Program-made: the position numbers and the translations under genes | Notes under the pieces: model-generated | The model's database searches: none | What the model was told of the DNA's origin: nothing | Seen by the model: only the letters and a program-made list of their open reading frames with translations | Shown here: positions 16,765 through 21,928 of the stretch, piece by piece | Layout of the letters: every line of letters starts with the position of its first letter | How positions within the stretch are numbered: the stretch's first letter is position 1 | Source of the DNA: Planctomycetaceae bacterium | GTDB taxonomy: Bacteria > Planctomycetota > Planctomycetia > Planctomycetales > Planctomycetaceae | Reading direction: 5' to 3' | DNA length: 33,750 bases | Assembly (NCBI GenBank): GCA_020426485.1 | Contig: JAGQPY010000010.1 | Location: 1-33,750 of the forward strand

Positions 16765-16893
16765 CTGTCTGGCCAGGCTGGGGAATTCAGTGAGTTCGCT
16801 GTGATATGTCCATCCAACGATGAACTAATCCGCGAGTTCCGAGGTCTGTATCGGTTGCGCCGTTGATTGAAGAGGTTTCGGAAGGCGATACCG

Positions 16894-18849
16894 ATGACGA
16901 GGCAGTTGTTTCGTTTTCCGATTTCAATGCGTGGCAGGACTATGAAATTCTTCTCATCATCGAGGCGGCATCGAAGTCAGGGCTCCAAGGGACACTCCGC
17001 TGCGGTTCAGACTGAAGCCGTGGAACAGCGACTGGTGCTGACCCCCGCGATCCTGACCCCCACCGGAACGGTCACGACTGCGACTCCGGAAATCACCTGG
17101 ACGGCTGAGCCGAGTGCAGAAAGCTACGATGTCTGGATCAGCAGCATTGATGCCTTCGAAACTGTTCGCGTGGAACGTGGCGTTGCGGATAACACTTATA
17201 CTCCGGATGCCGATCTGCCGCTGGGCCGCCTTCGCATCTGGGTGCGAGCCAACTTCTCCGATGGTTCGTCCACTCCGTGGTCGACTCCAGCGGAAACCAT
17301 CATTCAGGCACCTCCTGTTGTAACGGGACCGGTCGGTGTCGGCGCGCGACATGTCACACCGGATAACACGCCCGTGATTACCTGGGATTCTCCGGATCTG
17401 GCCTATCGTTTTCAAATCTGGCTGACGGATGTCACAGCGGGAACGGCAACCCAGTACACCGTCGACAACCTGACACCGCTGCTCGATGACACCGGCGCCG
17501 AGGTACTGGATGGCGATGGCAACGTGATTCCGGAAGAAGTTCGCAGCTTTGAAATTCCGAATACGCTGAATGTCGGCCGGTATCGAGTCTGGGTTCGATC
17601 GATTGATCAGACCGGGCGTTTGTCCGACTGGAGCGGTGCATATTCTTTCGATGTCGGAACGCCGCCGGAAAATCTGTCTCCGGCCGCACCGACTTTCCAG
17701 ACTGCTCCACTGCTGAAGTGGGATGCGGTTCCCGGTGCGACGGATTACGAAGTTTATGTGGCGTCGCAGCCGTATGGTGTGCCGGTGACGTCCGGCAGCT
17801 TTACTCAGTTGTATCGCGAGACCGTCAGCACAAATTCCTTTCAGATTCCCAAGGCACTGAATGCCGGCGGTTATGTGTTCTGGGTGCGTGCCATCAATAT
17901 CACGACGGGAAAGTCCACAGTCTACGGCGCGTGGAGCGAACCAGCTCAGTTCAGCACCATCATTGCCCCGGAGATCATCGGACCGGTCGCGGAATCCGGC
18001 GTTGTCACGGCAGCTCAGCCCACAGTCGAATGGACGGCGATCGACGGTGCCGCTCGCTATGACATTTACGTCCATCGATTCAACACACCGTCTCCCTATC
18101 TGCAGGTTCAAAGCAGCACGGACAGCTACACGTTTACAGAACGACTGCCTGCCGGCACCTACTACATTTACGTGCGAGCCATCGACACGCGCGGCAACTT
18201 TTCGCCCTGGAGCAACGCTTACGAAATCGTTGCCACCGGCGGCGCGCCCGTGGTGCTGACCCCTGTAGCAAATTCAACTCAGACATTCCCCGAATATTCG
18301 TGGACGCCCGTCGAAGGGGCCGCGTCCTATGAGCTTTGGGTGTCGTATGTCGGCGTTGACTTCACCTACATCAATGTCAGCGGAATCACGGACACGACGT
18401 ACACCTCAGGCCCCGTCGATCCGGGAACTTATCGAGTCTGGGTGCGAGCAATTCTGTCCGATGGTACCAGCGGCCCATGGTCCAGCGCGATTGATTTCTT
18501 CGCCGTTGCTGCCAGCGAGCAACAGCAGATTGACACACCATCGCTGCTGGCGAGTGTTGAAGTCAATCTGCTGTCGGAGGAGCGAACCTCCGCTTCGGCA
18601 GCGGAACGGACGACTGTCGAACCTCCCGAAATCCCGGAACAGGCAGCGTTGGGTGAGTCGTCTGTGGCGGAGCATCACCAGCAGGCCGACGACGATGGCC
18701 TCGCCCCGGCTTCTGTTGACGTGCTGACGCCTCAGAATGCTGGTGATTTGCTGCTCAACCCAACTCTGCCGACTCACCAGCTGGCCATACTTGCTGAAGA
18801 CTGCCTGACCAAAGAATGGTGGCAGGAAGAGACATCCGTTGAAGGATGA
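16894..18849 (+). CDS. Exported protein with five FN3-like repeats and planctomycete N-terminal motif
   Basis: The protein is 651 residues from the ATG at 16894, chosen because GGAAGG lies 8 nt upstream. A TTG at 16867 and an ATG at 16942 are alternatives. The N-terminus is Arg-rich and ends in 'EAVEQRLVLTP', matching the ExR-(hydrophobic) motif found at the start of many large planctomycete exported proteins; its sorting role is not established. Five beta-sandwich repeats of about 80-115 residues follow. Each has 'P-x-(I/L/V)-x-W-x-x-(x)-G-A-x-x-Y-(D/E)-(V/I/L)-(W/Y)-V' early and 'G-x-Y-x-(V/I)-W/Y-V-R-A' late. Repeat 2 has an insert with 'LDGDGNV', a possible calcium loop. The C-terminal 100 residues are acidic and without repeats. 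A surface or adhesive role is likely by analogy. Confidence 0.82.
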   Translation: MTRQLFRFPISMRGRTMKFFSSSRRHRSQGSKGHSAAVQTEAVEQRLVLTPAILTPTGTVTTATPEITWTAEPSAESYDVWISSIDAFETVRVERGVADNTYTPDADLPLGRLRIWVRANFSDGSSTPWSTPAETIIQAPPVVTGPVGVGARHVTPDNTPVITWDSPDLAYRFQIWLTDVTAGTATQYTVDNLTPLLDDTGAEVLDGDGNVIPEEVRSFEIPNTLNVGRYRVWVRSIDQTGRLSDWSGAYSFDVGTPPENLSPAAPTFQTAPLLKWDAVPGATDYEVYVASQPYGVPVTSGSFTQLYRETVSTNSFQIPKALNAGGYVFWVRAINITTGKSTVYGAWSEPAQFSTIIAPEIIGPVAESGVVTAAQPTVEWTAIDGAARYDIYVHRFNTPSPYLQVQSSTDSYTFTERLPAGTYYIYVRAIDTRGNFSPWSNAYEIVATGGAPVVLTPVANSTQTFPEYSWTPVEGAASYELWVSYVGVDFTYINVSGITDTTYTSGPVDPGTYRVWVRAILSDGTSGPWSSAIDFFAVAASEQQQIDTPSLLASVEVNLLSEERTSASAAERTTVEPPEIPEQAALGESSVAEHHQQADDDGLAPASVDVLTPQNAGDLLLNPTLPTHQLAILAEDCLTKEWWQEETSVEG

Positions 18850-18973: not shown

Positions 18974-20458
18974 CTACTTCGTCCGCTTCCGCTTGATGGC
19001 ACTGCGGTCAATCTGTGACCGCAGGTGATCATATTCCGGATTCACACAGTAGTCACCCCATTCGTACAGAACCTGAATCAGGCCTTCGTCAGATTCGGGC
19101 TGCTGTCCTTTGTCGCCGGTCTGTGTGATCCATGTCTGCAGCAGCTCGCGATGGCGTTCCAGCTGATCTGCCAATGCCGGATCGTCTGCAAGATTGTGGA
19201 TCTCATGCGGATCATTCCGCAGATCGTACAGCTCTTCGGCCGGTTTTCTGTCGCTGAAGAAGATCTGCTGAACGTCGTTCATTTGGCCGTGTTCCATCAT
19301 CTCACGCAAACGAATCGTGACCGGCCACGGGTCCTTGTAACTAGGCTGCATGTAGGGACGATCCGTCAGGTAGTTCCGCAGATATTTGAACTGCGGAGTC
19401 ACGATTGCTCGGATATGTTCAATCGTAAAGTCGCAGCGGTCTCGTGCAGCCACGATGTATTCCCGCGGTGAGTAGTCCTGCGCCAGAAAGTTTCGACCTT
19501 CCATATATTCCGGAAGGTCGGCTCCAGCGTAGGCCAGACACATTGGTGCCAGATCAATGCCGGAAATCAGATCGTCACGCACGGTTCCGGCTTCAATCTT
19601 TGGGCCGGAAATGATCAGCGGCATCTGAATGCCGCCTTCGTACAGAAACTGCTTGTGGCGATGCAGCTTGTAGCCGTGGTCCGAGAACAGCACAATCAGC
19701 GTGTTGTCATACAGCCCGTCCCGACGCAGCGCGGCGATGATGTCTCCCACCTGTTCGTCGGTCTTCACCAGGCAGTCATAGTGATGAGCGATTTCCTGAC
19801 GGACCTCCGGTATGTCCGGGTAATAAGGCGGCACGGGGACTCGGGACGGGACCATTTTCTCGGGAGCCGCCTTCCCCAGCTTTCCGCCTCCCAGCTGCAC
19901 CTGCCCGAAGAACGGCTGACCCGGTTTTCGTCGCTTCCAGCAGTCGCCGGCCACGACGGATTCCGGCCCCCAGCCTTTGTGCTTCGGGACGTAGTCATAC
20001 AGATCGGCTTCGTCGAAAACGAAGTTATAATCCTGCTTTCCGCCCTCATTGAACGTGTAGTATCCGTGAGCACGAAACAGTTCGGGCAGAGTACGGACGC
20101 CGTCCGGCAGGTGAATCATTCCCACGCCGTCATGTTTGGTGCCTTTGGCAATATTGCGAGAACTGCGATGCTGATGGTTGCCAAAGGTGGTCTGCATCAC
20201 GCCCAGCATGATGGCCGAACGAGTTGCGGAACAGACACCGGCTGGTGTATAGAAGCGAGTGAATCGTGTTCCCGACCGAGCGAGTGCGTCGATGTTGGGC
20301 GTCTCAATCAGAGTTTCGCCATAGCATGAGAACCAGCCGCTTACGTCCTCCAGGTAGATCCACAGGATATTGGGCCGGTCAGCAGCCACCACGTCGCTGG
20401 TACCGTTGGACAACAGGGCAACAACAAGAACAGCGATCCACAAGACGGTTTGTTTCAT
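18974..20458 (-). CDS. Secreted Cys-type sulfatase (alkaline phosphatase superfamily)
   Basis: From the ATG at 20458 the protein is 494 residues with a Sec signal peptide (about 1-26, ending near DVVAA). I prefer this start to one six codons upstream because the signal peptide begins cleanly. The active-site Cys is C76 in 'AGVCSATRSAIMLG'. The motif is C-S-A-T-R, with Ala where C-x-P-x-R is usual; such variants exist in planctomycete sulfatases and can still be converted to formylglycine. Metal-site residues include E37-D38 ('YLEDVSG', first Asp replaced by Glu, common in this subgroup) and 'LFSDHGYKLHRHKQFLYEGG'. It probably removes sulfate from an external glycan. No formylglycine-generating enzyme gene is visible in the window. 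Confidence 0.92.
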   Translation of the reverse strand: MKQTVLWIAVLVVALLSNGTSDVVAADRPNILWIYLEDVSGWFSCYGETLIETPNIDALARSGTRFTRFYTPAGVCSATRSAIMLGVMQTTFGNHQHRSSRNIAKGTKHDGVGMIHLPDGVRTLPELFRAHGYYTFNEGGKQDYNFVFDEADLYDYVPKHKGWGPESVVAGDCWKRRKPGQPFFGQVQLGGGKLGKAAPEKMVPSRVPVPPYYPDIPEVRQEIAHHYDCLVKTDEQVGDIIAALRRDGLYDNTLIVLFSDHGYKLHRHKQFLYEGGIQMPLIISGPKIEAGTVRDDLISGIDLAPMCLAYAGADLPEYMEGRNFLAQDYSPREYIVAARDRCDFTIEHIRAIVTPQFKYLRNYLTDRPYMQPSYKDPWPVTIRLREMMEHGQMNDVQQIFFSDRKPAEELYDLRNDPHEIHNLADDPALADQLERHRELLQTWITQTGDKGQQPESDEGLIQVLYEWGDYCVNPEYDHLRSQIDRSAIKRKRTK

Positions 20459-20587
20459 GAGTTGATCCGCATACAAAATCTTAAACAGAAGCGGCAGGCA
20501 CGTTCCAAATCGTAATGACCAATGTCGCCTCTTGCCACACCCCGGATTTCAGGCTGATCTGTAACCCCAGCAGTCAGGGAAAAGAAA

Positions 20588-21928
20588 ATGTTTCGACAAC
20601 TGTATTCTATGGCGATGGTGCTCGGCCTGCTGACGTGTTGGCAGTGCCGCGCCGACGACTACTGCGTGGTCGTGAAAGATGCCGTGCTGGAAGATGCTCC
20701 GTGGAAGGCGGTGGCGGATGCATTGCTGGATAAACACGATGGCTCACTGGTCACCTACCGGACTTCACCCGATGAAGCGCTGAAACAGTTGCAGCTTATG
20801 CAGCCGCGACACACCTGTTTTGTGGCTCCCCATACAGATGTCAGTCGAGAATTCGTGGCTGCGGTTCATCAGCTGACTCGCCAACTGGACGACGATCCTT
20901 ACACAGACACCTTCTGGGGAATTCTGACCGGCTTCGATGCCGCAAACGCTCTGGCGATTGCACAGTACAGTGAACCGCTGATCGTTCGCAAGGTGGCTGC
21001 GGGCACTGAGATTGCTCTGGATATGTGCGAACAGGGCCTGTGGTATGACGAACTGGTGAAGAACAAGCTTGTCCGCAAGGAGAAGGGCGGTCCGGTACAG
21101 CAGCTTGTCGGACCGGACGACACCACTGTGGCTTTGGTGAATTCGCTGAATGACTATCAGCCCGATTTGTTTGTCACGTCCGGTCATGCCACGGAACGCG
21201 ACTGGCAAATTGGATTTCGTTATCGCAACGGTTTTTTCAAATCAAAGCAGGGGCAGATGTTTGGAGAAGACACGTCGAAAAAACGCTTTGAAATCGAATC
21301 CCCCAATGTCAAAGTTTACCTGCCGATCGGCAATTGCCTGATGGGGCACATCGATGGCCCGGACGCGATGGCTCTGGCATGGATGAATGATGCCGGAGTC
21401 AGACAGATGATCGGCTACACGGTGCCCACGTGGTTTGGCTACGGTGGCTGGGGCGTGCTGGATTATTTTATCGAACAACCGGGCCGCTACACGCTGACGG
21501 AAGCCTTCTTCGCCAATCATCAGGCGCTGCTGCACGCTTTGGAAACCAATGCGGGCAATCGGCGAGGACTGGAATTTGACCGCGACGTGGTGGCGTTCTA
21601 TGGAGATCCCAAATGGGAGGCTCGCATGGCTCCGGCCGAATGTGCCTACGACCAGATGCTCACGGAAGACAACGGCACCTACACCTTCCGAATCACTCCC
21701 AACCGCGGCAAAGAATCCTTCAAACCCATCAACACCAATGGATCTCAACGCGGCCACCGCCCCATCGTCCACTGGCTGCCGCACCGATTAACCAACGTCA
21801 ACGTGACCACTGGAAACGAACTGAATCCCATGATCGCCGACGACTTCCTGCTGATCCCGAATCCTCAGGAATGCGATCCGGGCAAGGAATACAAAGTTGT
21901 GTTTCAGGCCAAACGGAGTGCGAAGTAG
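20588..21928 (+). CDS. Secreted protein with possible C25/caspase-like His-Cys dyad
   Basis: The 446-residue product has an N-terminal signal peptide (about 1-22) and a good ribosome-binding site (GGGAAAAGA). Two motifs recall the gingipain (peptidase C25, clan CD) fold: 'DLFVTSGHATERDW' (193-206, H200) and 'VYLPIGNCLMGHID' (243-256, C250). 'DDDPYTDTFWGILTGFDAANALAIA' (101-125) resembles the short strand-helix unit that precedes the catalytic part of C25 proteins. After C250, 'AMALAWMNDAGVRQMIGYTVPTWFGYGG' fits the following helix/strand. I infer a caspase-like protease fold; activity and substrate are unknown. The C-terminal 110 residues may be a beta domain. It diverges from the sulfatase gene across 129 bp. 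Confidence 0.7.
   Translation: MFRQLYSMAMVLGLLTCWQCRADDYCVVVKDAVLEDAPWKAVADALLDKHDGSLVTYRTSPDEALKQLQLMQPRHTCFVAPHTDVSREFVAAVHQLTRQLDDDPYTDTFWGILTGFDAANALAIAQYSEPLIVRKVAAGTEIALDMCEQGLWYDELVKNKLVRKEKGGPVQQLVGPDDTTVALVNSLNDYQPDLFVTSGHATERDWQIGFRYRNGFFKSKQGQMFGEDTSKKRFEIESPNVKVYLPIGNCLMGHIDGPDAMALAWMNDAGVRQMIGYTVPTWFGYGGWGVLDYFIEQPGRYTLTEAFFANHQALLHALETNAGNRRGLEFDRDVVAFYGDPKWEARMAPAECAYDQMLTEDNGTYTFRITPNRGKESFKPINTNGSQRGHRPIVHWLPHRLTNVNVTTGNELNPMIADDFLLIPNPQECDPGKEYKVVFQAKRSAK

Follow-up and report, generated by a model that had tools for sequence, protein, structure and literature searches.

What does the gene at 20588-21928 of this locus encode? The window, a 33,750-nucleotide stretch of a Planctomycetaceae bacterium contig, carries at that position a forward-strand frame that the original prediction took for a secreted protein related to family C25 and the caspases, transcribed divergently from a sulfatase gene. 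Our best explanation is that its product is a cysteine peptidase of clan CD that is exported, has gingipain-type architecture and belongs to a family sister to C25, and we assign this reading a probability of about 0.78. The fold, the homology to C25 and the conservation of a His/Cys dyad are supported by prediction and comparison; catalysis, export and target we infer.

The frame begins with ATG, contains no internal stops and specifies 446 amino acids. All three motifs on which the original prediction was built were found in it, namely TDTFWGILTG (residues 106-115), TSGHATERDW (197-206) and IGNCLMGH (247-254). Residue 200 is His and residue 250 is Cys, matching the earlier numbering, and conservation of the motifs among 102 homologous rows excludes chance. 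By eye, the N-terminus (MFRQLYSMAMVLGLLTCWQCRA|DD) resembles a Sec signal peptide with a presumed cleavage site at the bar, and residues 1-20 form the low-pLDDT part of the AlphaFold2 (AF2) model. This hydrophobic N-terminus, together with a lipobox-like Cys in relatives, suggests that the product is exported. The features are as follows.

20588..21928, + strand: whole gene, candidate exported clan CD cysteine peptidase of 446 aa (ORF, homologues, AF2 model at pLDDT 93.4)
20588..20653, + strand: putative Sec signal peptide, residues 1-22 (sequence reading; pLDDT low at 1-20)
20651..20965, + strand: N-terminal subdomain, residues ~22-126, four strands plus helices, with DDDPYTDTFWGILTG and then a helix at its end (DSSP of the model; gingipain alignment starts at residue 21-22; D103, D107, T114 and G115 each 99/99)
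20978..21637, + strand: caspase-like (C-terminal) subdomain, residues ~131-350 (covered by VIA-align 2 alignments with RgpB, Kgp, separase and CHAT; MALT1 for the caspase-like subdomain alone)
21176..21205, + strand: TSGHATERDW, residues 197-206; His200, the candidate catalytic His, comes right after strand 194-197 (His 102/102; aligned with the His of C25 GHG)
21326..21349, + strand: IGNCLMGH, residues 247-254, with candidate nucleophile Cys250 just past strand 242-246 (Cys 101/101; aligned with the C25 catalytic Cys)
21602..21610, + strand: GDP, residues 339-341, an end-of-domain motif common to C25 (97/97, 96/97 and 97/97; aligned with C25 GDP)
21647..21925, + strand: C-terminal beta-rich domain, residues ~354-446, at the position of the gingipain IgSF domain (strands in the full model)
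18974..20476, - strand: divergent sulfatase neighbour, context only (PF00884, E 1.3e-36)

Named databases gave the protein no family. Neither Pfam nor NCBIfam matched the query at E ≤ 10. Pfam C25 (PF01364) was absent from the matches of 48 family members at E ≤ 1, and Pfam C14 matched neither the query at E ≤ 10 nor any of the 48. We set aside as noise the weak Pfam matches among these members (DUF1654 in 9/48, best E 0.043; DUF4240 in 3/48, best E 0.0093; and others). With the query, a search of PDB sequences gave nothing better than E 1.3, all of it noise from D-Ala ligases; the 48-row family profile found nothing there at E ≤ 10, and a plasmid search for the family yielded no match. Among the papers listed on gingipains, C25, clan CD and caspase-like proteins or Planctomycetes, no title or abstract opening (including that of PMC6365825) names the family, which may nevertheless have an unlabelled MEROPS entry. 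It is a real, conserved and apparently uncatalogued clan CD family of gingipain type.

The family extends well past the window. A contig scan based on fixed peptide patterns recovered 71 loci, assigned by record names to Planctomycetota (42), Verrucomicrobiota (20), Kiritimatiellota (4) and Lentisphaerota (1), with 4 unplaced. The nearest homologues, 71-73% identical, occur in MAGs called Fuerstiella. Counting the window's own genome in each case, matches were present in 10/99 relatives' genomes and in 66/392 genomes of the phylum, the latter figure including, besides true family members, a distant group whose matches cover only about the first 125 residues. The window's genome (G000) holds a single copy (1 match). 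All five listed Kiritimatiellota and Lentisphaerota members (5/5) have a lipobox-like Cys near the N-terminus. One homologue with 64% identity (L066:5483-6451) comes from a Candidatus Nealsonbacteria bin, in which its contig is probably misplaced.

Conservation of His200 and Cys250 had been set beforehand as a test of the prediction, and both residues proved invariant. In the broad alignment, position 200 is His in 102/102 distinct homologous rows and position 250 is Cys in 101/101 rows that reach it, one fragment stopping earlier. The surrounding positions are nearly as constant (S198 102/102, G199 101/102, N249 100/101), as are D103, D107, T114 and G115 (99/99 each), E155 (99/100), Q273 (100/100) and GDP at 339-341 (97/97, 96/97, 97/97). 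Ala directly follows His200 in 98/102 rows (A201), and Gly does so in the other 4. The most distant rows are only ~30% identical to the window protein, one of the comparisons behind this figure using 48 of the homologues, and the conservation therefore reflects real constraint. The broad set comprises 102 rows, with 13 rows of a sister group held apart. Omitted from the first set are L009/L014, L085 and L010, and from the second L100, L108, L118, L125 and L127 (fragments or repeats of the window). An earlier count of up to 78 rows, made with L009, L014 and L085 left out, had a lone non-His residue (M), which we take to be L010, misaligned there; its own sequence reads ASHG. We considered E155 as a third catalytic residue and make no claim for it, as its C25 counterpart could not be fixed. 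Conservation marks E155, D178, Q273, W282 and W288 as candidate residues of the S1 pocket.

A caspase-like fold was the second test named in advance, and the model came out not only caspase-like but specifically gingipain-like by AF2, Foldseek and VIA-align 2. Predicted from 48 aligned rows, it had a mean pLDDT of 93.4 and a pTM of 0.92. The single Foldseek match in the PDB at E ≤ 0.001 was gingipain R (1cvr, E 6.9e-9, prob 1.00). VIA-align 2, run on the top 1000 Foldseek chains, ranked RgpB highest (4ief, Z 21.9, rmsd 3.2, 274 aligned, model residues 22-349; a second RgpB at Z 21.3), followed by Kgp (6i9a, Z 20.4, rmsd 3.7, 284 aligned; a second at Z 20.1), the RgpB and Kgp alignments each covering 274-285 residues. 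Next came separase (ctSPD, Z 13.7) and Craspase CHAT (Z 13.5), and then, more weakly, PorU (6za2, Z 9.4 over 203 residues) and clostripain-type C11 (Z 6-7). The paracaspase MALT1 reached Z 5-6 against Z 22 for gingipain, and unrelated rows lay at about Z 4, far under the Z 20-22 of the gingipains. Given matches to RgpB, Kgp, separase, CHAT, C11 and MALT1, the predicted fold of the query is that of the clan CD caspases and haemoglobinases. In a viral structure library, the only match to pass E ≤ 0.001 had a TM of 0.13 and a prob of 0.16, and we took it as meaningless.

The secondary structure of the model agrees with that given for gingipain in PMC4357240, and the candidate dyad is placed accordingly. 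The N-terminal subdomain has strands at 25-30, 53-57, 75-79 and 109-113. In the caspase-like subdomain, strand 194-197 precedes H200, small strands lie between 205 and 235, and strand 242-246 precedes C250. PMC4357240 puts the clan CD dyad where beta-3 and beta-4 end, which is the placement seen here, with His200 and Cys250 each following a beta strand. Further strands lie at 271-277 and 335-338, ahead of a beta-rich part at 354-443 modelled with high confidence. That domain is outside the VIA-aligned range, and folding the C-terminal 104 residues alone from the single sequence rather than the alignment gave pLDDT 55, a model that we discarded.

The relationship to C25 also emerged from profile comparison. 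A profile of the broad family set, for which the hhalign filter retained 85 of 102 rows, aligned with 37 planctomycete C25 domains at E 1.3e-7 and prob 94.1 over 335 columns. In this register the His of TSGHAT faces that of GHG in C25, GNC faces the catalytic Cys and YGDP faces GDP, the last invariant in 8 planctomycete C25 rows. Control comparisons gave E of at least 0.23 for five reversed profiles and at least 0.024 for 12 unrelated neighbour families, each of these E-values applying to one pair. A narrower comparison of 48 family rows with 8 C25 rows reached only prob 0.4 and E 0.14 over 53 columns, with the Cys still in register.

An unnamed sister group of 13 planctomycete rows (e.g., L131-L140 and L010) links the two, matching C25 at E 2.3e-15 and the family at E 3.9e-23. 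Its motifs are DDDPFVDF...ITG and GHG...AC, with His in 11/13 rows and Cys in 13/13. It resembles the family in its N-terminal subdomain motif and differs in its canonical HG and AC and its often larger open frames. Its member L010 had no Pfam match. Two members forming one starred tree pair, L129 and L130, retain the Cys site but carry Cys at the catalytic His position (TGCGD and GSCGD); their enzymatic activity may be altered or lost. The L136 ORF, 1526 aa from position 388, includes two sister-group N-terminal domains (profile matches at residues 100-209 and 568-676). In a quick tree of 48 family, 13 sister and 15 of the 37 C25 rows, the family, the sister group and C25 each fell on one side of a branch (SH-aLRT 99, 91 and 99, respectively). 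The branching order is tentative, as the alignment is very divergent and carries a long-branch warning. The best reading is that the family, together with the sister group, is sister to C25.

How far the C25 label can be stretched decides the strongest alternative, namely that the protein is an ordinary C25 peptidase, Arg- or Lys-specific like the gingipains, that has drifted beyond the reach of Pfam. The closest folds, those of RgpB and Kgp, and the remote homology to C25 speak for it. Against it, the family forms a group of its own (SH-aLRT 99), the sister group lying between it and the 15 C25 rows, and the prodomain is missing. Moreover, C25 proper is recognised in the same phylum: PF01364 scored over its cut-off in 131/246 phylum genomes, and C25 is also recognised in a genome (G034) that has this family as well. 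The window's own genome, 86% complete, had no PF01364 match. We consider simple drift doubtful. The label itself stands for fold likeness and remote profile homology and falls for membership of Pfam C25, as PF01364 was matched by neither the query nor the 48 members.

We turned to the neighbourhood for a link to function. The sulfatase (18974-20476, - strand) does diverge from the gene, as originally predicted, across a gap of ~110 bp and is a PF00884 member, but it is not a conserved partner. Sulfatases occupied 15/225 slots near the gene and 16/219 slots far from it, so no specific pair is indicated, and the neighbours listed for L015-L017, the nearest homologues, include no sulfatase. We rejected the sulfatase as a functional partner, its frequency far from the gene being equal to that nearby. 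Partners vary among loci and include DUF1501, PSCyt/PSD, DUF1552, sulfatases, a glycerophosphodiester phosphodiesterase and a MotA/TolQ/ExbB protein. Five PVC cluster families taken together were not significantly enriched (44/225 near versus 32/219 far, Fisher p 0.21), with far slots drawn from the same 17-kb loci serving as a weak control. According to PMC5615132, sulfatase and PSCyt genes are often neighbours in Verrucomicrobia, and what the PSCyt genes do is unknown. Genomic context thus provides no more than a loose link.

Some loci have recurrent neighbours of their own. At L043, L044 and L078, an ORF of one family follows the gene in the same orientation after 16-30 bp, with GDPD in the one member scanned. 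Likewise, four loci from gut Kiritimatiellae MAGs (L079, L081, L082 and L084) share an ORF family 61-94 bp downstream, with MotA/TolQ/ExbB in the one member scanned. Within the window, a 660-aa frame at 16867-18849 (+ strand) has repeated fibronectin-III/Ig-like domains (PF00041 and PF24421 over cut-off) and is probably a surface protein.

These neighbourhoods bear on a second alternative, in which the protein would be a transpeptidase, sortase-like or strictly limited processing enzyme that, like PorU, acts on the cell's own exported proteins and is not digestive. PorU is among the structural matches, the window's genome has a single copy, the lipobox-like N-termini (5/5) suggest cell-anchored action, and five loci (L033, L034, L036, L039 and L062) set the gene in tight same-strand runs with DUF1501, PSCyt or sulfatase genes. 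Set against this are the far better matches to RgpB and Kgp and the similar frequencies of neighbour classes near and far. We regard this reading as unlikely. The same low standing applies to its broader form, in which an uncatalogued clan CD family of Planctomycetota, Verrucomicrobiota, Kiritimatiellota and Lentisphaerota, lacking a zymogen prodomain and an Arg-binding helix, would supply a dedicated processing enzyme or transpeptidase for exported proteins, a PorU counterpart without a type IX system.

The original prediction had left protease and pseudoprotease side by side, and the evidence favours the former. A pseudoprotease or binding protein that kept the gingipain fold, with its pocket as receptor or scaffold and its dyad retained for structure, could account for Ala in place of the usual Gly after His (98/102 rows), the absence from the model of the alpha-1 region, which in gingipain contributes to the S1 pocket, and, through the Cys-for-His substitutions of L129 and L130, the hint that inactivation may occur nearby, yet an intact His and Cys over four PVC phyla down to ~30% identity would be rare for a dead active site and makes this explanation improbable. 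Judged by sequence, an active peptidase is probably well ahead of a pseudoenzyme because the His/Cys pair is invariant.

As an exported clan CD peptidase, the protein would consist of a signal peptide, an N-terminal subdomain, a caspase-like subdomain bearing His200 and Cys250, and a C-terminal beta domain. The proposed nucleophile is Cys250, where strand beta-4 ends, and the proposed general base/acid is His200, where beta-3 ends; the pair would cleave the peptide bond via a thioester intermediate outside the cytoplasm. With no N-terminal inhibitory prodomain, regulation would have to depend on location, calcium or access to the substrate. Its probable role would be the maturation or turnover of exported proteins, or the digestion of external protein.

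With these results the gingipain branch of clan CD gains a family that is apparently uncatalogued and is tied to C25 through an unnamed sister group, and a protein that Pfam and NCBIfam leave unnamed gains a testable candidate catalytic pair. According to PMC6752024, no other peptidase genes with a signal peptide were as abundant in estuarine sediment metagenomes as those of C25-type enzymes. Families missed by Pfam would therefore drop out of such counts.

Among known systems, separase and CHAT (Craspase/Csx29), which are intracellular components of large regulated assemblies, share the caspase-like domain and a preceding subdomain with Z up to 13.7, below the gingipains. PorU, a sortase that operates with the type IX secretion system, has a C25-like fold, but the match is much weaker. 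Unlike the gingipains, the family is not known to carry a type IX secretion tag. It reads GHA/GNC where gingipains read GHG/xC, and DDDPYTDTFWGILTG is its own motif. We take the catalytic His of RgpB to be His211, as Gly210 and Gly212 in PMC4357240 itself suggest, the number being printed there as His221. Where the family predominantly has Ala after His, gingipain has Gly212. RgpB has a 229-residue N-terminal inhibitory prodomain, described in PMC4357240, whereas the catalytic fold of the query model starts at residue ~22, right after the putative signal peptide. The prodomain may be a feature of RgpB rather than one that defines all C25. The same text describes gingipain H-alpha1 as carrying Asp163, the sole side chain that hydrogen-bonds P1 Arg. 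In the AF2 model there is no helix between residues 138 and 149 and no evident counterpart of H-alpha1/Asp163, and the Arg/Lys specificity envisaged in the original prediction is therefore without support here. What the family does share with RgpB and Kgp is the two-subdomain fold over residues 22-350 (Z 20-22), consecutive strands ending first at the His and then at the Cys, GDP at the end of the domain and a predicted beta-rich C-terminal domain.
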